The position numbers were made by a program, and so were the translations under genes. Below the pieces are notes generated by a model. That model searched no databases. It worked only from the letters and a program-made list of their open reading frames with translations, and had not been told where the DNA came from. From Fodinisporobacter ferrooxydans (lineage in GTDB: Bacteria > Bacillota > Bacilli > Tumebacillales > MYW30-H2): a stretch of 64,000 nt of DNA. This document shows, piece by piece, positions 3,311 through 35,757 of the stretch. The stretch lies in NCBI RefSeq assembly GCF_022818495.1, contig NZ_CP089291.1, forward strand, positions 1,520,501-1,584,500. The letters are read 5' to 3'. Each line of letters opens with the position of its first letter. Position 1 is the stretch's first letter.

Positions 3311-3428
3311 GTCTGGTGATGATGGCAGAGGGGATACACACGTACCCATCCCGAACACGACCGTTAAGCCCTCTAGCGCCGATGGTACTTGGAGCGCAGG
3401 CTCCTGGGAGAGTAGGACGTTGCCAGGC
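3311..3428 (+). rRNA. 5S ribosomal RNA
   Basis: About 117 nt with canonical 5S features: conserved cccatcccgaacacg in the loop B/C region, gccgatggtac in the helix IV region and ggagagtaggacg near the 3' end. The ends tctgg and ccagg pair to close helix I. It follows the 23S gene in the same orientation, so both belong to one rrn operon. Confidence 0.95.
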
Positions 3429-20599: not shown

Positions 20600-21208
20600 T
20601 TAAAACAATTGATGCAGTCCGATGAAAATAAGCAGAATTCCTGCGATATAGGTTGCTTTGTTGCCGAATACTCCGGCTACGTATGTTTTGCCGATATAAA
20701 TGGAAATGCCAAACAAGACGTAACTGAATATACCTACAGAGAAAGCGGTGAGAAAAATATTTAATTGAATGACACCTGCATCAAATCCACCCGCCAATGC
20801 ATTAATGGCTAGCGCTGCCCCTAATACAATCGATTCGGCAAGACTGATTGTCTTGGATTTGTCCGAATCGGCCGCCTCCGGATTTTGCAAAATTCGTATC
20901 ATGGTGGATGAAGTATCGGATGCTTTGGATGCTTTTTCAAAAAACGGCTGCAACATGACCCAAAACCCCACCAAGATGAGCAGAATGGTGCCTAGTATTG
21001 TCCCGATGCGTGGGGAAATCCAGAGACCGATCCATTTTCCGGCAATCCCTGCCGCAAGTGTTGCGAGTGCAGACATGATTGCGATCATTGCGTTTGAATA
21101 CCAGGGAACTTGTATATCGCGGATTCCGTACGAAATACCGACGCCTGCATTGTCTAAATTCGCGGCAATGCCGATCATGATGATATTGAAGAGGTTTGAT
21201 TCATGCAT
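20600..21208 (-). CDS. ytaF: Sporulation membrane protein YtaF (MntP-like)
   Basis: A 202-aa integral membrane protein with six predicted helices. It has the family features GIAANLDNAGVGISYGI at the N-terminus and a second copy-like ALAINALAGGFDAGV in the second half, typical of the MntP/YtaF superfamily. YtaF is a sporulation-associated protein in spore formers; its transport substrate is not established, while MntP relatives export manganese. The start follows gtgaggtgattt. It is divergent from the P-type-ATPase-like gene at 21242 with only about 33 bp between the predicted starts. Confidence 0.85.
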   Translation of the reverse strand: MHESNLFNIIMIGIAANLDNAGVGISYGIRDIQVPWYSNAMIAIMSALATLAAGIAGKWIGLWISPRIGTILGTILLILVGFWVMLQPFFEKASKASDTSSTMIRILQNPEAADSDKSKTISLAESIVLGAALAINALAGGFDAGVIQLNIFLTAFSVGIFSYVLFGISIYIGKTYVAGVFGNKATYIAGILLIFIGLHQLF

Positions 21209-21241: not shown

Positions 21242-24200
21242 ATGCATAACGGTTTGACCATTATCCGAAAAAATTTTGCAATTCTTTTGGGAAAAGAGGA
21301 TGAATCGCATCAATCCTTGCAAGATGGAGAGTCTAAACCTGTAGGAGGTGTATGCGAATGCAAAATTGGCAGGATGGTAAATTCGAATTTGTTTGGAACA
21401 ATAAACGGGGTGACTCGTGTGGCGTATTCCATCGGCAGGCTTGAATCGTTGGCGTTTCGAATCGTCAATGCCACCCGGCAAGTGGTTACAGAAGTAATTT
21501 TTACACATGGCGGATGTACGGATCACCGATATAACCCCGAGAAAGGGAACCCTAAAGCATCAAATATTGATCGCAGGCCATCAGATCGTAATAGCAGGTC
21601 ATCAGATCTTGATATGGAATGGCAGGCAGAAGATGCCCGATATGCCGGAGATTCTTCCCATGCAGAAGTTGAAAGGCTAAAAAGATCACATCAACAAAAC
21701 CAGGGAGATCCATTTATTTGGGATTTGCAAGCCATTCGGAAATATCAGGAACAAAACCGTGATTCCGGCCTTACAAATGAGGAAGCGCAACAGAAACTCA
21801 ATCAATTTGGATGGAATGAAACACGTGGACAGCCTGGAAGCATTCCGATGTTTCTGCACCAATTTGCAAATGTATCGACGGTAAGCCTGCTGGGATTTGG
21901 CGTATTGGCATTATTTTTGGGAAAATATATCGACGCGGCCATTGTATTTTTTACATTTTTGCTTTCAGGCGTTTTGACCACACGGTATAAAGGCTTGTCA
22001 GAACAAGCGCATCAGGAGCACTTGCGAAAACATAAATCGGTTATGGCGCTAAGGGAGGGAAGATTGAGCCAAATATCTTCCCACTTGATTGTACCTGGCG
22101 ATCTTATTTTTATAAGGCCAGGTGATATGGTACCGGCAGATGGGATTCTTTTACAAACGAATCATTTTGAACTGCGGGAACTTGCTTCTGACGCTTCGTA
22201 TCAATGGAAGACGAAAAAAGGTGTAGAGGACCCTGACTGGATTCAAGCCGATTGGGCTATGTCCAAGCGCAATCTTGATGCATTTAGAGCCTCTGAAGCT
22301 GCAGTGTATGCAGGATCTGTCGCGATTCGCGGTACTGCCAAGATGCTAGTCACCGCTACCGGGAAACGTACACGGTATAGCCAATTGCTGCAACAGCCCA
22401 AACACCAGCAAATGTTTACGGAAAAACATTATCACCATATTACTTCATATCTCACAAAATATGGTTGGTTAAGTATTCTTGCAATTGGTGCAATTACGAT
22501 GCTTTTGCGCTGGTCCGGTACTGCCGCATTGCAAACAGCTGTCGCGGTTGGGACATCTGTCATTCCCGGCGGTCTTTCCCTGCCTGTGTGCCTGGCATAT
22601 TGGTCGGCATTGAAAAAAAGCAGAAAGACAAATGGCATGCAAGGACTGCCGAGTATGCACCATGTAGACAAGCTGGAAGATAGTAAGGGGATTATTTTGT
22701 CAGAACATGGGATAACCAAAGAGTTGAACATTCAACAATTGTGGTGTGCCAATACGCAATGGAATCTGGACCAGTCGGGAACAATCGGCGCAAAAAGTGT
22801 TTGGCAGGCAGCCGCGTTATATGCACAACACCAAACGGCCGCCCAGACATCCCATTGCAGCGAGCCTAGTCTATATGATCAGGCGATTCAGCGGGCAACC
22901 GCTCAGTTCGGGCAGAGTATGGAAGCAAATCCGGCAAAGTGGATTTGGATTCATCACGGCGGGATGCAAGATCATGAATTGTTTGAAATGCGGGTGTTTA
23001 AGGACGAGAATGGCCGTTTGATCGAAGTCGTACGGGGTCCTGCGGGACTGTTGTTTCAAGCATGTGCAAAAGCGGCCGGTGCTGATCAAGATCTTGCTTC
23101 CATTGATACAGAGCAAAGTCTTGAAGCTTCGGTTGTCGAAGATTCTTTTCGGAGTTGGCTGCACACAGCAGACGAACACCAAGCATGTACGATTGGTTTT
23201 GCCTGCCGGGTTCGCGATCAAGGTGGGACATCCTCTGATGGAAAAGACCTATTGCCAAAGGATGGACAGGATAAACAGGATGTGTTCAAATCCGATTTGA
23301 TTTGGATTGGCGCTTTCTCGATGAAACGAACATATCAGCATGTACAGGATTTGTTATACCGGTGCAAAGAGCGGAAATTGCCCGTTTTTCTATTGGCCGA
23401 TTTCTGTATGGCGGAAGATTCGGATTTCTGGAAAGCGATCGATCACAAACAGTTGCATATAAAAACAGTCGCGGCAGACAAATGTTTCGAAGAAATGTCT
23501 GAGCAGACGCTGGGACATTATGATATCTGGGTCATTCACGGAAATGATGAGCAGCGGTTGCAAGTGGTTCATACGCTGCGGGAACGCATGTCTGATGTTT
23601 GTTTTATCGGCTGCCAAGAGCAAGAGAGAGCGTATTTTGGTGCAGCGTGGATGTCGATTGAGCAAGGAGTGTTGCGTGGTTTAAAGGATGTGATTCATTT
23701 CATCGAAGAAGCGCAAGACGCGCGCTCTCGTTTATCCCGCGCCAATGGAATGATTATCAGCGGGAATTTTGCAGAAGCCGTGTATACGACAATGACTGGA
23801 ATTCTTGGCTTAACGCATGCACATGGTCCCATCAATCTCAATATTTTAACAAACCTCATCACTTCGATCGGTATCGCAATCGGGGGACAGCGCAATGGAG
23901 AAGCAAAGCATGCGCAAGATTTCGGGGAGTTGAAAAAACCGATCCTTTCCCACGGTGTGATCAACGGCTTGATCGCTACAAGTGCATACGGAATCGGACT
24001 ATGGATTCGCACCGATCCGATGTTTGCAAGTACGTTCGCCTTCGCAACATTGATTCTGTCACAACTGATTCATGCGTTGAAGTGGGGAAGAAAAGAACAT
24101 GTGGATAAACTTGCCGAATTGACGGAGGAAACCGTTATGGTGGTGAGTGTCATAACTGCATTGGGAATATTAATCGTTAGTGCACATACGCCAGCAGTCG

Positions 24201-24382
24201 CGCAAATGTTCCGTTTAACGCCGTTAGCCTTGCATGAATGGCTGGCAGCTGCAGCGATTGCCGGGGTAACAGGCCCAATTGCGGCAAAAATTGAGCAACC
24301 GATTTGGCGTGGCATGAAACGATTGAACCCAATTAAGGATCGATTCAAAATTCGTTCGATCAATCAACCGGAAGTGGCATGA
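21242..24382 (+). CDS. P-type ATPase-like pseudoenzyme (catalytic motifs lost)
   Basis: A 1046-aa homologue of the P2-type ATPases at 27152 and 30441. The actuator region is recognisable (VPGDLIFIRPGDMVPADG), as are paired membrane helices and the TM5 motif GNFAEA. The phosphorylation site DKTGT is replaced by EHGIT (residue 488), TGES by a sequence near ELASDASYQW, the TM4 PEGLP by PGGLS, and GDGVND by IGCQEQERA. It therefore cannot form the aspartyl-phosphate. The reading frame is intact over 3 kb, so it is not an ordinary pseudogene. The start is uncertain: 21242 has no clear ribosome binding site, and ATG 21374 is an alternative. A regulatory or partner subunit role is inference. Confidence 0.75.
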   Translation: MHNGLTIIRKNFAILLGKEDESHQSLQDGESKPVGGVCECKIGRMVNSNLFGTINGVTRVAYSIGRLESLAFRIVNATRQVVTEVIFTHGGCTDHRYNPEKGNPKASNIDRRPSDRNSRSSDLDMEWQAEDARYAGDSSHAEVERLKRSHQQNQGDPFIWDLQAIRKYQEQNRDSGLTNEEAQQKLNQFGWNETRGQPGSIPMFLHQFANVSTVSLLGFGVLALFLGKYIDAAIVFFTFLLSGVLTTRYKGLSEQAHQEHLRKHKSVMALREGRLSQISSHLIVPGDLIFIRPGDMVPADGILLQTNHFELRELASDASYQWKTKKGVEDPDWIQADWAMSKRNLDAFRASEAAVYAGSVAIRGTAKMLVTATGKRTRYSQLLQQPKHQQMFTEKHYHHITSYLTKYGWLSILAIGAITMLLRWSGTAALQTAVAVGTSVIPGGLSLPVCLAYWSALKKSRKTNGMQGLPSMHHVDKLEDSKGIILSEHGITKELNIQQLWCANTQWNLDQSGTIGAKSVWQAAALYAQHQTAAQTSHCSEPSLYDQAIQRATAQFGQSMEANPAKWIWIHHGGMQDHELFEMRVFKDENGRLIEVVRGPAGLLFQACAKAAGADQDLASIDTEQSLEASVVEDSFRSWLHTADEHQACTIGFACRVRDQGGTSSDGKDLLPKDGQDKQDVFKSDLIWIGAFSMKRTYQHVQDLLYRCKERKLPVFLLADFCMAEDSDFWKAIDHKQLHIKTVAADKCFEEMSEQTLGHYDIWVIHGNDEQRLQVVHTLRERMSDVCFIGCQEQERAYFGAAWMSIEQGVLRGLKDVIHFIEEAQDARSRLSRANGMIISGNFAEAVYTTMTGILGLTHAHGPINLNILTNLITSIGIAIGGQRNGEAKHAQDFGELKKPILSHGVINGLIATSAYGIGLWIRTDPMFASTFAFATLILSQLIHALKWGRKEHVDKLAELTEETVMVVSVITALGILIVSAHTPAVAQMFRLTPLALHEWLAAAAIAGVTGPIAAKIEQPIWRGMKRLNPIKDRFKIRSINQPEVA

Positions 24383-24394
24383 GAATTTTTTTAT

Positions 24395-24442
24395 AAGAGA
24401 ACGGCGAGAATTACTTTTGAGTAAATTCTCGCCGTTCTCTTT
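24395..24442. terminator. Bidirectional terminator between convergent genes
   Basis: A perfect 18-bp stem (aagagaacggcgagaatt and complement) flanked by T-runs on both strands. It separates the pseudo-ATPase gene from the minus-strand gene at 24449. Confidence 0.9.
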
Positions 24443-24448
24443 TGTGGA

Positions 24449-24826
24449 CTAAGGCTTGGGAAGATATTTTTCGATCGTTTTGTCATCCAGCACGGCAAAT
24501 GTTTGGGATATGTCAGGCAAGGTTTCCCCAGGAACTTCAGCAGCCGTATCCATCCTCTGCGAATACTCATTGGATGGATTGTCGGAGCTTTGCAGTCCAT
24601 CATATGCATACTCTTCATACGAATGCATACCACTTGTCGTACCGGCAGCAGAGAATTGCTCACTTTGCAACTGGGAATCTTTTTTCATACTTTTGATTGT
24701 ATGATTCATTTGGTCTTTTACTTCCAGCGCGGCAACCGTACCTTTCACAGCCAGACTTCGCAATGCCCGTTTTGCTTTTGGTGAGCTTAAAAGTATCCCT
24801 GCCATGGAGGCAATGAATTGAAGCAT
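24449..24826 (-). CDS. Unrecognised small protein of the P-type ATPase locus (125 aa)
   Basis: I do not recognise the family. The ATG at 24826 is chosen because ggaaaggagaaatccc precedes it; an upstream in-frame ATG at 24850 has no such site. Residues 1-20 form a short hydrophobic helix (MLQFIASMAGILLSS). Residues 20-50 are helical and basic. The last 70 are polar, rich in Ser, Glu and Asp and likely disordered. It is encoded opposite to all other genes in the locus and diverges from the gene at 25012, sharing a 185-bp promoter region with it. Confidence 0.6.
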   Translation of the reverse strand: MLQFIASMAGILLSSPKAKRALRSLAVKGTVAALEVKDQMNHTIKSMKKDSQLQSEQFSAAGTTSGMHSYEEYAYDGLQSSDNPSNEYSQRMDTAAEVPGETLPDISQTFAVLDDKTIEKYLPKP

Positions 24827-25011
24827 GGGATTTCTCCTTTCCTGCACCATTTTCTATGTTGACGATTTCTGAGACACCTTTCAGCGTTTCCCACATTTTC
24901 TACTGTAACCAAAATACAAAATTTTCATTACGGAAATGAGTGCACAATACATAATTCCAATCGCGATAGCTCAAACTTTTAAATGTATTTTTTGAAAAAG
25001 GAGAATTCTGG

Positions 25012-26862
25012 ATGCAGCAAAAAGAAGCAAGATTGATCCGGGCAATTCCAGGTCGAGTGCGCTTCATCGTATGTCATTTAAAGGGAAACCGCGTACTTGC
25101 GGCGCACATGACAAAACACTTACAACGGGTGGAGGGAATTCAGCATGTGGAATGTTCTGTTATCACCGGAACCCTTCTCGTACGATATGATGTTCGATTG
25201 CTGTCCATCCAAGACATGGAGCGGGAAGTTCAGGCGGTCCATCGTCATAATAAAATTCCATCTGACATGACAGTCGGATGGAGGGAAACGGCAGCATTTT
25301 CTGAACTATCACCCATACGGAAAGACATGTTAGCTGCCGGTCTCATGCATCAGGGAAAGACTTTTGCCGATCACTCTCTCCGTACGAATCCAAAAGTCCC
25401 TTTGCCTTTGATGATTTCTGTCGCAGGCTTGGGATTTTTGACAATCAAGCAAATGATGGTGGGGCGTACCGCATTAGCTTCCAGTCCGGCGTTATTTTAC
25501 CTATCCGGAATTCTCTCAATCGTCAGTGGTTATTCCTTTGTCAACAGGGGGGTGAAGCGATTCCTGAGAGATCGCCAAATTCCTATGGATGTTCTCCTTG
25601 GGACCGGTGTATTGGTGTTTGGTTTGCTGCGTGAAAATCTGGTTGTATTGGCAGGATTGAGTTTGCTGCAGTATGTCAATTGGAAACAGCAGCAGCTTGC
25701 ATGCTACCCGGCACAGCAGCCAATCGTTCCAAAGGATATTCGAGAGTATATTGAAAAAACCAGCAAACGGGGATTTTTATTTGCCGCAATGACTTTGGGC
25801 ATGACGGGGAATCCTTTATTTGGTCTAGGGATTTTATTGGCTGCGAATCCGCGCCCCGTATTGGTGGCAACAGACTATGCCTGGAAACAGGCAGAGGTCG
25901 TCTCCATGCAAAGGGGATATATGATACCGAAAGATGGTTCCTTGGAACAGTTGTCACGCACCAAAACGATTGTATTTGAAGATACGGCACTTATGTTTGA
26001 GCCGCAAAAAACGCAAGTGCAATGTATGTCGTATGGAGATGAACAGGAAGTTTGGTCGTTGGCTGCAGCCGTATTGGAAAAAACGGGACATTTTTGGCGG
26101 GATGCAGTCATGAAAAAAGCGCTGGAAAGCGGGAAAACCATTCGTACAGCTTTTGCAGTGAAGCAGACACAAGAAGGTGTGACGGTACAGATCAGCGGCA
26201 TGACCGTATACTGTGGAACGATCAAGTTTATGAAACAGCACCAAGTGAATATCCAGGCATACCAATTGGAAACGAAACGATTGCAAAAATTAGGGTATGA
26301 AGTGATACTGCTGGGGAAACAGGTTGCTGATGAACGCACCTGTATAGGAATCCTGATCGCTCCAACCAATAGTTTTACAAAGGAATTTCAGCAGCTTAGA
26401 GAGCTGGCGCAGCAACAAAATTGGAACATTGGCGTGATCGAAAACCAGATGAATATCGATACCGGCATTTTAATCCGCAACAACATTGTGACTTCATGGC
26501 TGACAAATGATATCGATCAGTTGGAACAACGGTTGCAGTCGGAAAACAATCTTGGCAATGAAATTGTATTGGTGAAAAAACAGCTGGGAACAAGAGAGCA
26601 CAGTTCACCATATGTTCGTTGTGTGCCAAGTATTGATATTACACAGGTCAATGACCTGTATCATGCAGTTGTGTACGCAAACCGCATGAAGCAGGTCGTG
26701 TATGAACATTTGGCAATCACAAAAGTGTGGAATGTAGTTGGAAGTGTTTTGGCGGTGCCGCTAACCATGTATGGTGCGCCGATTGCCAATATTATGTCAG
26801 ACTCGATTTCCTTGATATTTTTGTCAAGGGCAAAACGAATCAGTGAAACAGCAACAGCATAG
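25012..26862 (+). CDS. P1B-ATPase-like pseudoenzyme with N-terminal HMA-like domain
   Basis: 616 aa. Residues ~8-70 form an HMA-like fold (IPGRVRFIVCHLKG ... GTLLVRYD) without the CxxC metal site. Residues ~125-230 resemble the first membrane helices of P1B-type metal ATPases, with DVLLGTGVLVFG. The helix that should carry CPC reads NPRP, and the phosphorylation site reads FEDTALM (around residue 323) instead of FDKTGTL. The nucleotide and hinge motifs are also missing. It keeps two C-terminal helices. The frame is intact and it has a good aaaggag site. A scaffold, sensor or partner role for the active pumps is inference. It is 18 nt upstream of the gene at 26881. Confidence 0.75.
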   Translation: MQQKEARLIRAIPGRVRFIVCHLKGNRVLAAHMTKHLQRVEGIQHVECSVITGTLLVRYDVRLLSIQDMEREVQAVHRHNKIPSDMTVGWRETAAFSELSPIRKDMLAAGLMHQGKTFADHSLRTNPKVPLPLMISVAGLGFLTIKQMMVGRTALASSPALFYLSGILSIVSGYSFVNRGVKRFLRDRQIPMDVLLGTGVLVFGLLRENLVVLAGLSLLQYVNWKQQQLACYPAQQPIVPKDIREYIEKTSKRGFLFAAMTLGMTGNPLFGLGILLAANPRPVLVATDYAWKQAEVVSMQRGYMIPKDGSLEQLSRTKTIVFEDTALMFEPQKTQVQCMSYGDEQEVWSLAAAVLEKTGHFWRDAVMKKALESGKTIRTAFAVKQTQEGVTVQISGMTVYCGTIKFMKQHQVNIQAYQLETKRLQKLGYEVILLGKQVADERTCIGILIAPTNSFTKEFQQLRELAQQQNWNIGVIENQMNIDTGILIRNNIVTSWLTNDIDQLEQRLQSENNLGNEIVLVKKQLGTREHSSPYVRCVPSIDITQVNDLYHAVVYANRMKQVVYEHLAITKVWNVVGSVLAVPLTMYGAPIANIMSDSISLIFLSRAKRISETATA

Positions 26863-26880
26863 CATAAGGAGTTTTTTCTC

Positions 26881-27132
26881 ATGATACAACGTAGTGTGGA
26901 ACGATTGATCGTAGGTGCCGCTTTAGCCGTAACCGGCAGTATTCTGCTGCCTGTAATCAAAGAGGTAATCAAGCCTGTAAGCGGTATGGGAGGCAAAAGT
27001 TTTTCCGATTTGCGGGAACGCGGCCAGTATATGATGCAGATTGCGCGGGAAGAAGTGGAAGATATCGTAGCGGAAGCGCAATTTGAACGTATGAGGAAGA
27101 AGATCGACCGGGAAATCGGCGGGATGCAATGA
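26881..27132 (+). CDS. DUF5132-like small protein (83 aa)
   Basis: One hydrophobic segment (ERLIVGAALAVTGSILLPVIKEVI, residues 8-30), then an amphipathic acidic helix (AREEVEDIVAEAQFERMRKK). This resembles DUF5132 proteins, which I recall beside P-type ATPase genes. It has an aaggag site. It lies between a pseudo-ATPase (18 nt upstream) and an active ATPase (19 nt downstream), so it is almost certainly co-transcribed. Its N-terminal helix pattern is similar to the 48-aa protein at 33615. The function is unknown; a small regulatory membrane subunit is possible. Confidence 0.65.
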   Translation: MIQRSVERLIVGAALAVTGSILLPVIKEVIKPVSGMGGKSFSDLRERGQYMMQIAREEVEDIVAEAQFERMRKKIDREIGGMQ

Positions 27133-27151
27133 CCGATGGAAGGAGGTTCTA

Positions 27152-30100
27152 ATGAAACAGAATAGAGATGGCGGCAAACGGTGTCTGCACCAATTGCCCG
27201 GGCGGATCCGAATATTTGTAAAAGGAGTGCAAGGACACGATCAAACCGCTGCAGAGTTGGACACATACTGCAGCCGCATATCCGGAGTGATCGGTGCTTC
27301 CGCAAGCAGCCGGACAGGAAGAGTGCTGCTGTATTTTGATGAACATGTGATTCCAGGCGAAATTCTGATACAGAAAATCCTTGAATTTGAGCATGTCCTT
27401 GAATTTGAACAAAGACGGATCGAAGAAGCTGCGGAAACATGTGTTGCCGCTTGTGCCGAGCGGCTGGCAACAGATGGTGCGCTGGCACAAAAGCCTGCAT
27501 GGTACGCGATGAGCGCAGAGGAAATCCTGGAGCGCTTGCAAAGTCACTCACGGAGCGGTCTTTCCACCCGGGAAGTGGAATCGAGATATCAGTTTTTTGG
27601 GAAAAACGAAATTCCCGAACCTGTTTCACCGCCCTGGTATCAGACGTTTCTCAAACAATTTTTCAATTTTACCACCTTTACCATGGTCAGCATTGCAGCA
27701 CTTCCCATATTTTTTGGACGTTTTCGCGATACGGCCGGTGTGCTTATGCTCCTTGGAATCAATGCGGTTATAAGTACATATCAGCAGCAAAAAGCACAGA
27801 AAGACGTTCGATCGTTGAAGCAATTAAGCATTCATCAGGCAAAAGCGGTCAGGGACCGCAAGGAAACAGTGATTCCGGCAAACCAACTGGTTCCAGGGGA
27901 CATTATCATCCTCGAAGCGGGAGATCGGGTGCCGGCGGATGCCATTCTTCTGGAATGTTGGAATGTAGAAGCAGATGAATCCTCACTGACTGGAGAATCT
28001 GTTCCTGTAGCCAAAGCAGAGTCGATCTGCTGTGAAACGGATACGCCTTTAGCGGAACGAAAAAATATGGTATTTATGGGGACGATCCTGACAAGGGGTC
28101 GGGCACATGGGATTGTCGTGGCAACGGGAGCGGATACGGAGATCGGCAAGTTGATCATAGGTTTGCAGCAAGTGAAAAATCGCCCTACACCGCTGCAGAA
28201 AAAATTGACGGTTGTTGCCAAGACGATCGTAATCACTGCATTGGCAATTGCCGGAGTTGTCGTCGGATTGCGCTTTATGCAAGGCTATCCGATCGCCGAA
28301 ACGCTATTGACAGGAGTATCTGTAGCGACAACGGCGATTTCCGAAGGATTGCCAATCATGATTACCGTATGCTTAGTTGCCGGGATGCGCCGCATGGTTC
28401 GGCATAAAGCTCTGGTGAAAGAAATGTCGGCACTTGAGACATTAGCGAAAGTAGATGTGATTTGCACAGACAAGACAGGTACGTTAACGAAGAATGAGAT
28501 GACTGTCAAAACGATTGTCCAAAATCAGCACAAATGGCATGTCACAGGTGACGGCTATCAGTTATCCGGCAGCATCGTCGACGAGAATCAGCGGCAAGTT
28601 CGCGTGCACCCATCCCATCCGCTTTATTGGATAAGTACATTGGCGGCACTTTGCAATGATGCAGAGTTGGGTGAATCCAGGGCTTCGGGGGCTTCCGGGG
28701 GTTCTGTTCAGAAAGCTGTATCGATTCAGGGAGATCCTACAGAGGCAGCTTTGCTGATTGCCGCCGGGAAAGCGGGTGTCGATGCGAAGCAGTGCCGGTC
28801 GCATTTTCGGCGTGTGCGGGAAATTCCTTTTGATTCGGATCGTCGGCGCATGACAGTCGTCTGCCGCAATCGCAATGGCGAGTACATCGTTTGTACAAAG
28901 GGATCTGTCGATGTTGTGTTGGGCAGTTGTGATTTTATGCAGCAGGATAAAGAAATCGAACAATTGGATGAAAAAAGCCGCGCCGGGATCCTTAAGCAAG
29001 AATATGACCTTGGGAAACAAGCCATGCGTGTGTTAGGCATCGCTTTTAAATCTTTGGATAGAGATCCGCACACTCTGTCACCGGAAGAACTGGAAAGCGG
29101 ACTTACCTGGGCGGGGATGTTTGCCATGAAAGATCCGCCGCGTGAGCATGTGAGCGAAAGCATTGCGGTCTGTCTGAAAGCGGGACTCCATGTTGTCATG
29201 ATTACAGGCGATCATCCGGTAACGGCAGAAGCCATCGGGAGAGAACTTGGCCTCATTCAAGGTGACAGTCAAGTTCTGACCGGTCGGGAACTGGAGTCAT
29301 TGTCGGATGAGGAACTTCTGGGAGCAATCCAAGGCGTGCGCATTTTCAGCCGGGTAGCGCCGACGGACAAACAGCGGATTGTAGCTGCATATCAACAACT
29401 GGGCAAACATGTTGCGATGATCGGTGACGGCGTCAATGATGTGCCTGCATTAAAACAAGCGGATGTGGGCATCGCTCTCGGGACGGGAACGGATGCGGCC
29501 AAGGAAGCATCCTCCATGGTGCTGACGAATAATGATTTTTCTGCCGTTGTCAAAGCCATTCGTCAGGGGCGCAGCGTGCTTGGGAACATTCGCAGCACCA
29601 TCGGGTATGTGTTTCTCGGGAATCTGTCCGAAGTATTCTATGCGGCGATGGTGGTTGTAGCCGGGCTTCCACTTGCGCTGATGCCGATGCAAATGATGTT
29701 CATGAATATGTTGACAGATTCCTTGCCGACCCTTTTGCTGACAATCGGCCATCCGAGCGTGAAGCACGATTGCTCTGTTGCGACTCCATTGTCAAACGTA
29801 AAAGACATTTTTGATCGTTCCTTTTTATCGAGAGTGACGGCAAGTGGTCTTATCGTCGGCGGTTTAACGACAATCACGTTTTTGGCAATGAATGGCGTGA
29901 CAGGCAATTTGCCGTTAGCGAGTACGATGGCTTTGGCTGTGTTGTGTATCGGGAAGCTCTTGCAGGTTTCCTATTGGCGGCGAGCCAGTGTCGGCACAGA
30001 TGACGCCAAACTCGATTCGTTGATGAAATTCACGCTGGCTCTTGGCATCACAGGGCTTTTGGCAGCTATATACGTACCATCCTTGCGGTTTGTATTCCAT

Positions 30101-30268
30101 AGTGTGCCGCTTGGTTTTACACATTGGGGAATTGTGATCGGCGCAGTTCTGCTTGGCACCAAATTAACAAGGCCATTCGCTTCTTATATAGAAAGAAAAT
30201 GGCCGCAAACACAGTCTTCCATAAATGAATGTTCGACGATCCCTTCGTCAGATGTCGCTGTGGCATAA
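27152..30268 (+). CDS. P2-type cation-transporting ATPase with N-terminal HMA-like domain
   Basis: A 1038-aa active-looking membrane pump. Residues ~10-70 form an HMA-like domain without CxxC (LPGRIRIFVKG ... TGRVLLYFD). The cation-ATPase N-domain, A-domain with TGES (280-283), P-domain DKTGT (Asp440), KGS (CTKGSVDVV) and GDGVND (758-763) follow. Membrane ion-site motifs are SEGLP in TM4, GNLSEV in TM5 and NMLTDSLP in TM6. These resemble Ca2+/Mn2+ P2A pumps (Asn-x-x-Glu in TM5, Asn/Thr/Asp in TM6), but TM4 has Ser for Pro. The substrate is a guess (Ca2+ or Mn2+). It overlaps no gene and follows the DUF5132-like gene. Confidence 0.85.
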   Translation: MKQNRDGGKRCLHQLPGRIRIFVKGVQGHDQTAAELDTYCSRISGVIGASASSRTGRVLLYFDEHVIPGEILIQKILEFEHVLEFEQRRIEEAAETCVAACAERLATDGALAQKPAWYAMSAEEILERLQSHSRSGLSTREVESRYQFFGKNEIPEPVSPPWYQTFLKQFFNFTTFTMVSIAALPIFFGRFRDTAGVLMLLGINAVISTYQQQKAQKDVRSLKQLSIHQAKAVRDRKETVIPANQLVPGDIIILEAGDRVPADAILLECWNVEADESSLTGESVPVAKAESICCETDTPLAERKNMVFMGTILTRGRAHGIVVATGADTEIGKLIIGLQQVKNRPTPLQKKLTVVAKTIVITALAIAGVVVGLRFMQGYPIAETLLTGVSVATTAISEGLPIMITVCLVAGMRRMVRHKALVKEMSALETLAKVDVICTDKTGTLTKNEMTVKTIVQNQHKWHVTGDGYQLSGSIVDENQRQVRVHPSHPLYWISTLAALCNDAELGESRASGASGGSVQKAVSIQGDPTEAALLIAAGKAGVDAKQCRSHFRRVREIPFDSDRRRMTVVCRNRNGEYIVCTKGSVDVVLGSCDFMQQDKEIEQLDEKSRAGILKQEYDLGKQAMRVLGIAFKSLDRDPHTLSPEELESGLTWAGMFAMKDPPREHVSESIAVCLKAGLHVVMITGDHPVTAEAIGRELGLIQGDSQVLTGRELESLSDEELLGAIQGVRIFSRVAPTDKQRIVAAYQQLGKHVAMIGDGVNDVPALKQADVGIALGTGTDAAKEASSMVLTNNDFSAVVKAIRQGRSVLGNIRSTIGYVFLGNLSEVFYAAMVVVAGLPLALMPMQMMFMNMLTDSLPTLLLTIGHPSVKHDCSVATPLSNVKDIFDRSFLSRVTASGLIVGGLTTITFLAMNGVTGNLPLASTMALAVLCIGKLLQVSYWRRASVGTDDAKLDSLMKFTLALGITGLLAAIYVPSLRFVFHSVPLGFTHWGIVIGAVLLGTKLTRPFASYIERKWPQTQSSINECSTIPSSDVAVA

Positions 30269-30440
30269 GTGTGAAACGGAGCAGCGAACGATACGGAAAA
30301 ATGTTTGACGGAAGAAAAGTAAAATCGTGCATCCATTTACATGAAATTTGTTTACATGCAAACACTATCTAGTACGCAATCAATCGTAGTTAGGGCTTTG
30401 AATTTCGGAACTACAACTTTTCAATTAGGGGTCGAAGTGA

Positions 30441-33400
30441 ATGGTTAACAACAAGACACATCGCTGGACGAGACAACTGCCGGGGAGACTGCGTGTATAT
30501 ATCAAAGGATTACGGCACAATTCACAAAATGCGCAGATCATTGCAGATTCCTTGCAGTCAGTCCCTGGCATTTTACAAGTGCGTCCATGTATTGTAACAG
30601 GCCGCGTCCTGATCCAGTACGACCATCAACAACTCGATCAAGTCAGTCTTTTGCAGGAAACCACACGTTTGGAGCAGCAATTCTCGGCAGACAAGCGGGA
30701 AGCGAATACCATAAGAGTCGACCATCATCAGTGGATGGAAAAGGATGAAGCAGCGGCAACGGCCGAATTCACAGGAACTCTGCATGCTGTTGAATCCGCA
30801 CAGGAAATGAATTGGCATGCTGTTGAAAGCGGGCAAGTGTTGGAACAATTTCAGGTCAATCACCACCAAGGGTTAACTGCCAATCAAGTACATATGTTGC
30901 GGGAGCGATTTGGAGCCAATCAACTGCAAGCAAAGCCCCCTACTCCTTGGATTCAATCATTTGCAGAACAGTTTAAGGAATTTACCACCGTTGTTTTGCT
31001 TGGCGCTTCCGTTCTTTCCATTTTTACAGGTGGATTGATTGACGGTTTGGCGATGGGAGGCATAGTACTTTTAAATGCGGTAATTGGTGCAGTTCAGGAG
31101 CAGAAAGCGGAGCAAGTGGTGCTATCGCTGAACCAATTCCAGCCGCCTGTTTGTACTGTGCTGCGAGATGGAGAAGAAGTTCAACTCTCGGGAATGGATC
31201 TTGTGCCGGGGGATATCGTACAGTTTGAAGCCGGTGATCGTGTCCCTGCCGATATCCGCATTATTCATGCCTGGAACCTGGAAGTGAACGAAGCGGCGTT
31301 AACCGGAGAATCCTTGCCTGTAGCCAAACATGAGGAAATGCTTGCGATCGCCTGTCCGTTGGCTGACCGCAAAAATATGTTATACATGGGTACGAGCATC
31401 ACTCGCGGCAAAGCGATCGGCATCGTTGTTGCAACGGGGATGGATACGGAAATCGGCCATTTGATGGCACTGATGAAAGACTCGGGGAGAGAGATTACAC
31501 CGCTGCAGCAGAAAGTGACTTCGATTACGAAACTCTTCTTTAAAGCCGCCATGATTGGGGGGGGTATTGTCTTTGCTACAGGACTTGTGCGCGGTATTCC
31601 GCTCATGCAAATGGTCACTACATCCATTACGCTGGCAGCATCAGCCGTACCGCAAGGATTGCCGATCGTCATCACGATTGCATTGAGTGCAGGCATCTTC
31701 CGAATGGCCGAAAAGCAAGTATTGATCCGAAAACTTTCCGCTTTGGAAACACTCGGGCGTACAACGGTCATATGTTCGGACAAGACGGGCACATTGACGA
31801 AAAACGAAATGACTGTACGAACGATCGCGACACCGGGTCAAGCATGGATTGTTACCGGGAACGGATACGATCCGGAGGGATCCATTCTGCCGGAAGACGA
31901 GGAAGTTGCGATTGCCTCAACTACGTCTGCGTCGGACAAAGAGACAATGTTGGAACAACCCTTGCAACATCCGGAATTGAAACGCCTGCTTGAAATCAGC
32001 TTGCTTTGCAATAACAGCAAATTGGAGCAAAGCGCCGATCAGTGGACAATCAAAGGAGATCCGACAGAAGGCGCGCTGGTAAGTCTCGCGGCAAAAGCCG
32101 GTATGCAGCAGGATCGGATGTACCAATGGAGCCGCTGTCACGAGATACCCTTTGACTCCAACGTCGGGACAATGAGCGTTGTTTGCAAGGATACTGCACA
32201 AAAAGACCAGTGTTACGTATTTGCGAAGGGATCCGTCGAAGCGATTTTGCGCTATTGTAATCAATATCAGGAAAATGGTGAAATCTATACACTGACCGCA
32301 GAGAAAAAGCAGATCATTCTAAAGCAAAATGAGATGTATGCAAAAGAAGCGCTGCGTGTTTTGGGATTTGCGTATCGTTCGTTGGAGTGGGACGAATCGA
32401 AAAAAAATGTGGATCAGACGGAGATGATTTACGTTGGCATGGTTGGCATGATGGATCCTCCCAAACCGGAAGTGGAAAATCACATCCGTGAAGCCTATCA
32501 GTTAGGCGTGAAACCGGTGATGATTACGGGAGATCATCCGATTACGGCAATCGCCATTGCCCGGCAATTGGGAATCGGGCACGGCGGGCAAGAGGTACTG
32601 ACCGGTCAGGAACTGGAGCGTCTAACGGATGAGGAATTGCTGCAAAGAGTAGAGCATGTGTCGATTTTTGCCAGAGTGACTCCGGAACATAAATTGCGCA
32701 TCGTCTCGGCGTATCAGAAATTGGGTCACTATGTCGCGATGACAGGTGATGGAGTCAACGACAGTCCGGCGATTAAAAAAGCAAATGTGGGCATTGCCAT
32801 GGGCAAGTCGGGGACGGAAGTAACGAAAGAAACATCAGACATGATCTTGAAAGAAGATCATTTCGGGTCCATTGTGGATGCGGTGAAAGAAGGCCGGACG
32901 ATCATTGGCAATATTCGGCGTGCAGTCGGGTGTCTGCTTACCGGGAATTTGGCGGAAATTCTGGTGACAGGCGCCGCCGTGCTCGTCGGCTTGCCGATTC
33001 CATTGGTACCGATTCAGATTCTCTTAATGAATCTGCTGACAGATGCGGTACCGGCGACGATTTTGGCGATTAATCCGGGCAATAGCCGCAAGCTGACAAA
33101 GCGGCAGGATATTGTGGATCGTTCTCTCTATCAAAAAGTCGTGACACGCGGCATTCTGCTTGGCACAGGCTCCCTCGGACTGTTTGCCTATTCATTGGCT
33201 ATGGGCGCTCCGCTGGTTGTAGCACAGACAGTGGCCTTTGCAACACTTGTTGCCGGACAATTGATGCAAACATTCTCCTGGCGGCAAGAGGGAAGTGTCG
33301 GGGGTGTCAGGGACTGGTTCAAAGACCGCTTCTTTGTGGGAGGTCTCGCGATCTCGTGGGCAGCATTGTTGTCTGTGATTTATATTCCGCCATTATCAGT

Positions 33401-33560
33401 TGTATTCCATACGGCACCTTTGACAATCGGCCAGTGGATACCGGTTTTGGCGGTTGCCGCATCCATATCGATGCTTGCCAAGCCCGTCCTGGGCCTTCTA
33501 TATAAACAAAATCAGCAATCCGATTCATTTCAGCCGACAAATTCATTGGCGGCAGCGTAA
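30441..33560 (+). CDS. Second P2-type cation-transporting ATPase with HMA-like domain
   Basis: A 1039-aa paralogue of the preceding pump. It has an HMA-like N-domain (LPGRLRVYIKG ... TGRVLIQYD, residues 8-60) without cysteines, TGES at 288-291, DKTGT with Asp447, KGS (FAKGSVEAI) and GDGVND at 769-774. TM5 GNLAEI and TM6 NLLTDAVPAT keep the P2A ion ligands. TM4 reads VPQGLP: Gln replaces the Glu that coordinates Ca2+ in SERCA-type PEGLP. That suggests altered ion selectivity or charge. It starts after an atypical aggggtcgaagtg site, 172 bp behind the first pump, so it may have its own promoter. Confidence 0.85.
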   Translation: MVNNKTHRWTRQLPGRLRVYIKGLRHNSQNAQIIADSLQSVPGILQVRPCIVTGRVLIQYDHQQLDQVSLLQETTRLEQQFSADKREANTIRVDHHQWMEKDEAAATAEFTGTLHAVESAQEMNWHAVESGQVLEQFQVNHHQGLTANQVHMLRERFGANQLQAKPPTPWIQSFAEQFKEFTTVVLLGASVLSIFTGGLIDGLAMGGIVLLNAVIGAVQEQKAEQVVLSLNQFQPPVCTVLRDGEEVQLSGMDLVPGDIVQFEAGDRVPADIRIIHAWNLEVNEAALTGESLPVAKHEEMLAIACPLADRKNMLYMGTSITRGKAIGIVVATGMDTEIGHLMALMKDSGREITPLQQKVTSITKLFFKAAMIGGGIVFATGLVRGIPLMQMVTTSITLAASAVPQGLPIVITIALSAGIFRMAEKQVLIRKLSALETLGRTTVICSDKTGTLTKNEMTVRTIATPGQAWIVTGNGYDPEGSILPEDEEVAIASTTSASDKETMLEQPLQHPELKRLLEISLLCNNSKLEQSADQWTIKGDPTEGALVSLAAKAGMQQDRMYQWSRCHEIPFDSNVGTMSVVCKDTAQKDQCYVFAKGSVEAILRYCNQYQENGEIYTLTAEKKQIILKQNEMYAKEALRVLGFAYRSLEWDESKKNVDQTEMIYVGMVGMMDPPKPEVENHIREAYQLGVKPVMITGDHPITAIAIARQLGIGHGGQEVLTGQELERLTDEELLQRVEHVSIFARVTPEHKLRIVSAYQKLGHYVAMTGDGVNDSPAIKKANVGIAMGKSGTEVTKETSDMILKEDHFGSIVDAVKEGRTIIGNIRRAVGCLLTGNLAEILVTGAAVLVGLPIPLVPIQILLMNLLTDAVPATILAINPGNSRKLTKRQDIVDRSLYQKVVTRGILLGTGSLGLFAYSLAMGAPLVVAQTVAFATLVAGQLMQTFSWRQEGSVGGVRDWFKDRFFVGGLAISWAALLSVIYIPPLSVVFHTAPLTIGQWIPVLAVAASISMLAKPVLGLLYKQNQQSDSFQPTNSLAAA

Positions 33561-33614
33561 GTCAAGGTTGCTCGTATCGTATCTGTTCGTATTCGAAAAG
33601 AGGTGAATGCATCT

Positions 33615-33761
33615 ATGATTCATCAGAGGATTGAAAGCTGGATTATGGGAATGGCGATCGTGATGACCGCTCCCGCCTTGATTTCCGTCATGATCGAAAC
33701 TTTTTGTCCAAGGGCAGTTTTGGGGACGAGAGGATTAAATAAAATTTTTGGTGCAAAATAA
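33615..33761 (+). CDS. Small membrane protein (48 aa) of the ATPase locus
   Basis: A short frame behind aagaggtgaatgcatct: basic start MIHQRIESW, one hydrophobic helix (IMGMAIVMTAPALISVMIE) and a basic tail ending LNKIFGAK. The first 28 residues align by eye with the start of the 83-aa protein at 26881 (Arg, Glu, Gly and Thr at matching spacing), so the two may be paralogues. It sits 54 nt after the second pump. It is short enough to be missed by standard annotation. Confidence 0.6.
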   Translation: MIHQRIESWIMGMAIVMTAPALISVMIETFCPRAVLGTRGLNKIFGAK

Positions 33762-33804
33762 AGGTACAGATGTTACAGAAACTTTAACTAGAGGGTGATC
33801 TGCA

Positions 33805-34179
33805 TTGTTTAGAGGCGCATCTTTATGGACAGGATTAATTGCAGGTGGATTGTACCAGTTTGAGGATGCAAAATCCTATAATAACGGCGAAATCAAAAAA
33901 AATGATTATGCAGCCAAAACCACTACGAATGTGGTCAGCGCTGTCGGCATTATGGCTGGCGTTGAGTATGGCGCTATCTGGGGAACGGCGCTTATGCCGG
34001 GCATCGGCACTGTCGTTGGTTCCGTCGTTGGTGCGGTTGTCGGTGATCGGCTCGGTCAATATGTAGGCGGACAAGCCGGCAACATGATGTTCAACCGCAA
34101 TCGGAATGGACAGAGTCCGCTCATGGCGCCAAATGGGATGGAACAGAATCAAGCCGGACAGACTTCGATCATTCAGTAA
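33805..34179 (+). CDS. Glycine-zipper small protein (124 aa)
   Basis: TTG start behind agagggtgatctgca. Residues ~45-95 contain glycine-zipper helices (GTVVGSVVGAVVGDRLGQYVGGQAG pattern), which commonly form membrane-embedded or outer-envelope helix pairs. The C-terminal tail is polar (Asn/Gln-rich). It follows the 48-aa gene in the ATPase locus. The function is unknown; a membrane accessory of the pumps is inference. Confidence 0.65.
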   Translation: MFRGASLWTGLIAGGLYQFEDAKSYNNGEIKKNDYAAKTTTNVVSAVGIMAGVEYGAIWGTALMPGIGTVVGSVVGAVVGDRLGQYVGGQAGNMMFNRNRNGQSPLMAPNGMEQNQAGQTSIIQ

Positions 34180-34310
34180 TTTTCAAAGGTGTTTTTATGC
34201 CGGTACAAATGGGTTGGCAATTCCCCCATGCCATTCTGATAGGAAGATACATGCCGGAGGTCCTCGAGCAATCGGGGATTTCCGGCGTTTGTGCCAAGGA
34301 GGATAAAAAG

Positions 34311-34532
34311 TTGGAAACGGTTGATCAACATTTGAAACAAGCGTTTTCTCATTTGCGGGAAGCGCTGGATCTAAGTATTCAAATGGTGCAAAACGATACA
34401 AATGCCAAAGGGTCGGTAGGGCGTTTGTGGGAAGGGTTTTTGGGCGAGTTTTTCAACATGATTCGAGTCAAGGGAAAAGAAAGTCGCTTAAATTTATTGT
34501 CCTTTGTAAAATTTCCATCTTTATGGAAGTAA
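34311..34532 (+). CDS. Small helical protein of unknown function (73 aa)
   Basis: The TTG at 34311 has an ideal aaggagg site 7 nt upstream, whereas an in-frame ATG at 34197 has none. The product is helical and amphipathic (HLKQAFSHLREALDLSIQMV), with a Gly/Phe/Trp-rich centre (GRLWEGFLGEFFNMI) and a basic end. The family is unrecognised. It is the last gene of the ATPase locus, 76 nt before the glycosyltransferase. Confidence 0.5.
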   Translation: METVDQHLKQAFSHLREALDLSIQMVQNDTNAKGSVGRLWEGFLGEFFNMIRVKGKESRLNLLSFVKFPSLWK

Positions 34533-34608: not shown

Positions 34609-35757
34609 ATGCCAATGAAAAAAATACTTGTCATGCCTTTTTTGAATATTCCATCTGGACACCATCAGGTTGCAGATGCAGTGATGGAGTGGATTCAATA
34701 CGTGGATTCATCAGTAGAATATGACAAAGTGGACATCATTGAATATAGCTATGGCAGACTGGTATCTGTGATATCTGCCGGCTATGTTCATTTCATACGC
34801 CTTTTTCCAAAAGCATATAGTTACATGTATCGAAAACTTTTCTATAGTCCGGACTCGGAAGAAAAACGGTTCCGCATGTATGAATGGTTGTTTATGAACG
34901 ATATGAAAAAGCTATTGGAAGAAAAACAGCCGGATTGTATTATTTGCACACATGCATTGCCATCATATCTGGCCAATCGGATGAAGATTTCCGGGTTGCT
35001 TACCACACCGGTGATCAATGTGTATACCGATTTGTTTGTCAATGACATTTGGGGAATTCAAGGAATTGATTATCATCTTGTCCCTAATCTTCATATAAAG
35101 GAATGGTTACAGCAAAAAGGCGTATTGGAAACCAGGATTTTCGTTACAGGAATTCCGACACATCCGCAAATTACCCGCTCCAAAAAACGTCTGCTTCACT
35201 CCAATTCAGCGATCCATGTGCTGGTGGCTGGAGGGAGTCTTGGCATTGGCGGCATGCGATCGTTTCTTAAGAGGAATTCGGTGACGGAAAACGTCCACTA
35301 TTTTGTACTATGCGGCAAGAATATTCGACTGTATCAAGAGTTGCTGAAGTTAAATCAATCACAGATTACACCATTGCCCTATATTTACTCGCGGGAAGAA
35401 ATGAACCGGCTGTATGATGAAGTGGATATTATTGTGACAAAAGCCGGCGGTGTGACGATCAGTGAAGGATTGATGAAACGAATCCCCATTCTTGTTTACG
35501 ATACGTTGCCCGGACAAGAAGAGATCAATTTGCAATATTTGAAACATATGGGGTTAATCTTTGATTTGCAAGATTGGAATCAAACAAAAACAGTTGAAGA
35601 TACCATTATTGCGATTTTAAAAAGCAAACATCAATTGGAAGAGGTTCTTGAGAAAATGGAGGAATACGAAAGACAGATTTCAGATAACAATCTTCCCTAC
35701 ATATTCAATCGTATCTTGCAAACACAAGTCCATGCGGGCATGGCGGAAAATATGTGA
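34609..35757 (+). CDS. UgtP/MGDG-synthase-like glycosyltransferase (GT28)
   Basis: A 382-aa membrane-associated glycosyltransferase. The N-terminal lipid-acceptor domain starts with the loop NIPSGHHQVADAV, typical of MGDG synthase and UgtP. The C-terminal nucleotide-sugar domain has VAGGSLGIGGM near 205 and the acceptor/donor loop VTKAGGVTISEGL near 280. Relatives transfer glucose or galactose to diacylglycerol, making glycolipids and the lipoteichoic acid anchor. The start follows gtaggagactg. The sugar donor cannot be told. A bidirectional hairpin follows. Confidence 0.82.
   Translation: MPMKKILVMPFLNIPSGHHQVADAVMEWIQYVDSSVEYDKVDIIEYSYGRLVSVISAGYVHFIRLFPKAYSYMYRKLFYSPDSEEKRFRMYEWLFMNDMKKLLEEKQPDCIICTHALPSYLANRMKISGLLTTPVINVYTDLFVNDIWGIQGIDYHLVPNLHIKEWLQQKGVLETRIFVTGIPTHPQITRSKKRLLHSNSAIHVLVAGGSLGIGGMRSFLKRNSVTENVHYFVLCGKNIRLYQELLKLNQSQITPLPYIYSREEMNRLYDEVDIIVTKAGGVTISEGLMKRIPILVYDTLPGQEEINLQYLKHMGLIFDLQDWNQTKTVEDTIIAILKSKHQLEEVLEKMEEYERQISDNNLPYIFNRILQTQVHAGMAENM

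Follow-up and report, generated by a model that had tools for sequence, protein, structure and literature searches.

Two degenerate P-type ATPases conserved beside two P2-type pumps and their fused relatives in Bacilli

Layout of the locus

The analysed window is a stretch of 64,000 nucleotides (G000:C1:1520501-1584500) from a 4.86-Mb genome whose class, Bacilli, was read from its relatives. It contains a P-type ATPase locus with two P2-type ATPases, here called C and D, two homologues without the catalytic motifs, A and B, and five small proteins, all of which were found where an earlier sequence-based prediction had placed them. The usual picture of a P-type ATPase is one catalytic chain assisted by small subunits unrelated to it; at this locus two different dead P-type ATPases are kept under selection beside live ones. 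The features, with positions in the window and lengths in amino acids (aa), are:

21242..24382, plus strand: A, pseudo-P2-type ATPase, 1046 aa; start uncertain (21242 or 21374)
24390..24440: strong hairpin, probable terminator, between the convergent genes of A and the 125-aa protein (-31.4 kcal/mol, z -7.9)
24449..24826, minus strand: 125-aa protein with a predicted membrane segment and a tail, divergent from B
25012..26862, plus strand: B, HMA_2 domain and pseudo-P1B ATPase without actuator domain, 616 aa
26881..27132, plus strand: 83-aa protein with a predicted transmembrane (TM) segment and a conserved EEVEDIxAEAQFERM; DUF5132-like, below cut-off
27152..30268, plus strand: C, HMA_2 domain and P2-type ATPase, catalytic motifs intact, SEGLP in TM4
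30441..33560, plus strand: D, HMA_2 domain and P2-type ATPase, 1039 aa, catalytic motifs intact, PQGLP in TM4
33615..33761, plus strand: 48-aa TM peptide, N-terminus by eye similar to the 83-aa protein
33805..34179, plus strand: 124-aa glycine-zipper protein with homologues beside a fused ATPase (see below) at 14 other loci
34311..34532, plus strand: 73-aa protein with TTG start and homologues near an ATPase at 8 other loci

The five small proteins are interleaved with the ATPases as predicted, with the correction that the 125-aa gene lies on the opposite strand. Because of this gene and the terminator-like hairpin that follows A, the layout suggests that A is transcribed on its own. Fewer than 20 bases separate B from the 83-aa gene, and likewise the 83-aa gene from C, and plausible ribosome-binding sites precede the plus-strand genes from B onward, so that B and the downstream plus-strand genes look like one operon. 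Scans for promoter and terminator consensus sequences gave results no better than those of shuffled sequences.

Conservation of the gene set

The sample included 300 Bacilli genomes, 14 of which, with the window's own, represented its order. A, stand-alone B and C were found in the same four of these genomes, the window's own and three others of the order (G001, G002 and G004). In all four, A and B lay at one locus with two active-type pumps, the second pump being in every case a further HMA_2-P2 protein. As the set recurs in three other genomes, its grouping is not due to chance. By simple counting, with relatedness ignored, the probability of finding A and C in the same four genomes was 3e-9 among the 300 genomes and 0.001 within the 14 of the order; relatedness was likewise ignored in the other co-occurrence statistics except where noted.

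The original prediction depended on homologues of the dead ATPases being neither absent nor frameshifted in sister species. Of the 13 further genomes of the order, three had orthologues, all intact, and in the remaining ones none was found. The set had no match in G003 and G005, which belong to the genus of G002 and G004, and the locus with separate A, B and C, hereafter the split locus, is therefore accessory. On plasmids, no relative of A or B was found at the limits used.

The gene order differs among the four split loci. This variation, together with the patchy occurrence within one genus, would fit P-type ATPases that multiplied in tandem by neutral expansion and merely share a locus, each part doing a separate job. 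Such an expansion is improbable, since the set A, stand-alone B and C holds together in the same four genomes despite the rearrangements, and the small proteins recur also beside the fused gene.

Protein A

Homology of A to P2-type ATPases was clear from about residue 164 on, and its profile matched P2 ATPases of known structure (E-value 8e-33). Of the ATPase domains, Pfam recognised in A the N-terminal, E1-E2 and C-terminal ones but no hydrolase domain, and at the position of DKTGT the sequence reads EHGIT, as had been noticed before. The orthologues in G001, G002 and G004 have open frames and 40-42% identity. TGES, DKTGT, TGD, GDGVND, PEGLP and the TM6 Asp are absent in all four proteins, and the NxxE of TM5 is retained in all four. 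The replacements (EHG, EQA or DHG for DKTGT, GCxxQER for GDGVND and PGG(L/F)S for PEGLP) consist of residues that are themselves conserved across the four orthologues. Nonsynonymous divergence (dN, NG86) was 0.34-0.60, and synonymous divergence (dS) was above 2 or beyond estimation. A represents a true pseudo-ATPase family.

An additional match among the 300 genomes, in G184, was a fused ATPase, which leaves A in the four genomes only. A single scan of genome contigs with A gave one weak Alphaproteobacterial stretch. In the tree of P2 bodies A formed one long-branched clade, the placement of which was unsure.

Protein B and the fused ATPases

The predicted FEDTALM in place of FDKTGTL was confirmed in B. 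In a profile comparison with the CopA-like P1B-ATPase of the same genome, B aligned over 541 columns (E-value 1.6e-25) with the actuator domain in a gap. B thus shares the helix and nucleotide-binding/phosphorylation-domain pattern of P1B ATPases such as CopA and ZntA, but it differs from them in lacking the actuator domain, CPC (here NPRP), DKTGT (here EDT) and GDGxND (GDGIND lost), and in an HMA domain without CxxC. The stand-alone orthologues of B in G001, G002 and G004 have 33-37% identity and dN of 0.50-0.70.

Relatives of B were present in 27 of the sampled genomes. In 21 of the 300 the relative makes up the N-terminal half of a longer ATPase (about 1420-1660 aa), the window's genome being among them with a second locus (L011:7188-11675). 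Frames of similar length occurred in two genomes elsewhere in the phylum. The N-terminal phosphorylation motif was degenerate (E/D-D-T and variants) in all 21 fused proteins, and in their N-terminal halves the CPC of TM4 was replaced by NPR(P) or a close variant. The C-terminal halves of the 21 proteins kept every catalytic motif, DKTGT among them, as well as PEGLP. In the tree of N-terminal halves, B formed one group among the fused sequences (support 87/89). From its motifs and its place in this tree, B is a split-off, stand-alone form of an N-terminal half like that of the FUPA24 family; by the same evidence it is an old pseudo-P1B half that was dead already in the fused proteins, and not a recently disabled pump.

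FUPA24 (TC 3.A.3.24), to which CtpH and CtpI of Mycobacterium tuberculosis belong, includes ATPases about twice as long as usual, in which a large N-terminal segment precedes the C-terminal region with the motifs (PMC3573892). CtpH and CtpI were listed as uncharacterised, and as an open question, in a review (PMC10654040). The original prediction had guessed that long mycobacterial ATPases of this kind may be fused counterparts of the locus, and for B this was right in Bacilli: the guess is supported because B corresponds to the fused N-terminal half and D falls within the fused clade (see below). The fused homologues of B and D fit FUPA24 in length and architecture as described in PMC3573892, and the link consists of these two features, whereas the window has one gene for B (616 aa) and another for D (1039 aa), and its pumps have an HMA_2 domain of their own. 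The degenerate P1B N-terminal half was seen in the fused proteins of Bacilli, to which the comparison was confined; there B would explain the large N-terminal segment of FUPA24-kind ATPases as a degenerate heavy-metal ATPase without actuator domain.

Three of the fused ATPases (L011:7188-11675, L078:3612-7883 and L079:3501-7757) have lost most of the N-terminal nucleotide-binding domain, the part lost in the L011 protein corresponding approximately to residues 334-467 of B. The dead N-terminal half thus seems to keep shrinking in some lineages. A third architecture is formed by B-like proteins of 459-465 aa, at L081:4167-5546 and L082:4638-6035; both loci have a 229-aa relative of the 125-aa protein, and L081 has also a protein like the 83-aa one. 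No P2 pump was seen within the stretch fetched around the B-like proteins (about 460 aa) of G253 and G280.

Selection and alternative roles of A and B

The suggestion that the dead ATPases are kept by selection agrees with the data: A and B are intact in four genomes, with dN of 0.34-0.70 against saturated dS, which is not neutral. The loss of all catalytic motifs in A and of the phosphorylation site in B would be expected if the two were decaying pseudogenes of former pumps, but the frames are intact in four genomes at 33-57% identity, dN is far below dS, the replacement motifs are conserved, and the degenerate phosphorylation motif is found in B relatives of many families. Decay is therefore very improbable, and it was rejected on the basis of the intact orthologues and the low dN relative to dS.

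One or both proteins might instead act as ATP-independent channels or carriers, or have some other catalytic activity, and not regulate C and D. A retains a P2 membrane domain with the NxxE of TM5, and in B the arrangement of helices is still that of P1B ATPases, most members having NPR in TM4. However, A lacks the ion ligands Glu of TM4 and Asp of TM6, B lacks CPC, and no conserved new catalytic motif was recognised, all of which makes a role of this kind doubtful.

A third alternative would have A and B as stand-alone sensors or buffers of metal or nucleotide and not as physical subunits of C and D; an example would be a metal sensor in the membrane with signalling through the degenerate phosphorylation domain. 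This agrees with the conserved new residues of A (RGPxxLL and CFIGCxDQERA in the four orthologues), with its own apparent transcription unit, and with the B-like proteins of G253 and G280 described above. On the other hand, the B homologue is joined to a pump in 21 Bacilli genomes and A was never seen without C, and we regard stand-alone sensing as unlikely, although it is the least improbable of the alternatives considered.

The pumps C and D

According to Pfam, C and D each have the complete set of P2 domains, and HMA_2 (PF19991) is present in B, C and D. The N-terminal domain had been described as HMA-like and free of cysteines; CxxC is indeed absent, but one or two isolated cysteines occur in each of these domains, and the domain is HMA_2. 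TGES, DKTGTLT, KG, TGD and GDGVND are present in both pumps, and NxxTD of TM6 in C. The claim that both have all motifs therefore stood for the catalytic motifs and failed for TM4 of D, which has PQGLP and not PEGLP. Residue 405 of D is encoded by CAA (Gln; window 31653-31655), and the fused relatives have Glu in PEGLP. The PQGLP may change or weaken transport by D, and C may then be the main pump.

The solved structures nearest to C were LMCA1 and SPCA1, and the best NCBIfam model for both C and D was of the PMR1 type, with scores below the curated cut-offs for Ca2+ pumps. C and D share the full P2 body and the catalytic motifs with the P2A Ca2+-ATPases (LMCA1, SPCA/PMR1), but differ from these by the N-terminal HMA_2 domain and by SEGLP (C) and PQGLP (D) in TM4.

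In the tree of P2 bodies, C formed a clade of its own (support 100/100) and D was nested within the fused clade (99/97), with both C and A outside it. By the two trees, D and B look like a possible fission product of a fused gene, but the second pump in G001, G002 and G004 is a different HMA_2-P2 protein (x).

Small proteins

The small-protein families were counted by all-against-all comparison of 27 loci, the window included. The 125-aa family was present beside the ATPase in 18 of the 27 loci, the 124-aa glycine-zipper family in 15, and the 73-aa family in nine; the 83-aa family was found in ten loci besides the window. As the families recur beside fused genes across loci, the possibility that the small proteins are mere spacers between the pumps was rejected.

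Eight of the 11 members of the 83-aa family gave weak matches to DUF5132 (PF17195; best E-value 1.5e-4, best printed score 21.4 bits against a gathering threshold of 25), and the window protein itself gave none. One member of the 11 matched DUF1490 (E-value 0.02). DUF1490 is the family of PacL1, a protein with a membrane helix and Glu/Ala repeats; the P-type pump CtpC depends on PacL1, and the two cluster together (PMC9374683, PMC13043812). Small Glu/Ala-rich membrane proteins beside a P-type ATPase are a likeness to these PacL1-CtpC platforms and to DUF6110 (PMC9374683, PMC13043812), but the partner pump in the window is of P2 and not P1B type, and no C-terminal metal-binding motif was seen in the alignment of the 83-aa family. 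By its alignment and profile matches, the relation of this family to PacL is one of resemblance and not of membership.

Polyphosphate and metal-related neighbours of the fused gene

The polyphosphate kinase 1 gene (ppk1) adjoins the fused gene in seven loci. At least two copies of ppk1 were found in seven of the 161 ppk1-bearing Bacilli genomes, and all seven carry the fused ATPase (Fisher p-value 3e-9, or 4e-5 counted by genus); in six of them the extra copy is the neighbour of the fused gene. The window's genome has two ppk1 genes (G000:C1:3547286 and 2446421), one of which (L011:4879-7002) lies 185 bases upstream of its fused FUPA24-like ATPase. In this genome an ArsR-family metalloregulator and a CDF transporter come after the fused gene. 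In G008 the fused ATPase has TerC/YjbE in its neighbourhood, and homologues of YtaF/MntP were found near the fused ATPase in L063, L077 and L079, all of one genus, as well as in the window. A selenocysteine tRNA was observed near the G008 fused ATPase (L025:3351-3443). G001 lacks ppk1; the neighbours of its fused gene include an exopolyphosphatase-like gene and two tandem dTMP-kinase-like genes (L024:7693-10549).

The association of a P-type pump with polyphosphate enzymes at the fused loci may recall acidocalcisome- or ferrosome-like metal storage. The split-locus genomes G001, G002 and G004 differ in being without ppk1. For this reason less weight was given to a role of the split locus itself in polyphosphate metabolism, and the polyphosphate context supports the fused form, extending to the split form only indirectly.

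Proposed function of the locus

On balance, the locus probably encodes a pump assembly for divalent metal cations in which dead ATPase-fold proteins serve as subunits; ion, complex and function are deduced from the genes. C and D would be the ATP-hydrolysing P2-type pumps, as their motifs suggest. B most likely binds D, C or both within the membrane and serves there as a subunit for regulation or docking without catalysis of its own, since a B-type half is fused ahead of a D-type pump in most relatives. A, found only together with C and B, would most likely be a second non-catalytic subunit, paired for example with C. The two would stabilise, gate or localise C and D. For the HMA_2 domains, protein contact seems likelier than metal donation, as CxxC is absent, and the small membrane proteins may by analogy be scaffolds of PacL type that cluster the P-type pumps. 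The presumed cargo is a divalent metal, and export would be its direction only as the habit of the family. In the fused form, transport may furthermore be tied to metal buffering by polyphosphate, which is a weaker suggestion made for that form because of the dedicated second polyphosphate kinase and the metal-handling neighbours.

Several observations weigh against such an assembly. D has Gln for Glu in TM4 and thus misses the acidic ion ligand. AlphaFold reached a predicted local distance difference test score (pLDDT) of 35 for B alone, and of 34 for A, for which C and D were the only aligned sequences. A is tied to the complex by co-occurrence only, and its transcription unit looks separate. 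None of the other three split loci has a stand-alone pump of the D type; their second pump is a P2 protein of the x type outside the fused clade, and B need therefore not be specific to D. The lack of ppk1 in the other split-locus genomes belongs here too, and Rfam gave no metal riboswitch for the scanned loci.

A more specific proposal, a multi-subunit P-type ATPase with the pseudo-P2 and the actuator-less pseudo-P1B proteins as obligate structural or regulatory subunits of P2-type metal pumps, small scaffolds, and a fused form linked to metal storage by polyphosphate, is tentative and rather less probable than the pump assembly in its general form. If true, a P-type pump would here be regulated by subunits that are dead copies of its own fold. 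Since both split and fused forms exist in nature, small proteins recur with them and the fused ATPase is associated with an additional ppk1, the CtpH/CtpI question can be tested in non-pathogenic Bacilli.

Surroundings of the locus

Two further genes flank the ATPase locus:

20600..21208, minus strand: YtaF/MntP-family membrane protein (Pfam), divergent from A
34609-35757: glycosyltransferase resembling monogalactosyldiacylglycerol (MGDG) synthase, downstream of the ATPase locus

A homologue of the MGDG-synthase-like protein (24% identity) lies near the G001 fused ATPase (L024:10578-11705), which may be due to chance. The window starts inside a 23S rRNA gene (1-2991) followed by a 5S rRNA gene (3312-3428), and these genes account for the higher G+C content at its start.

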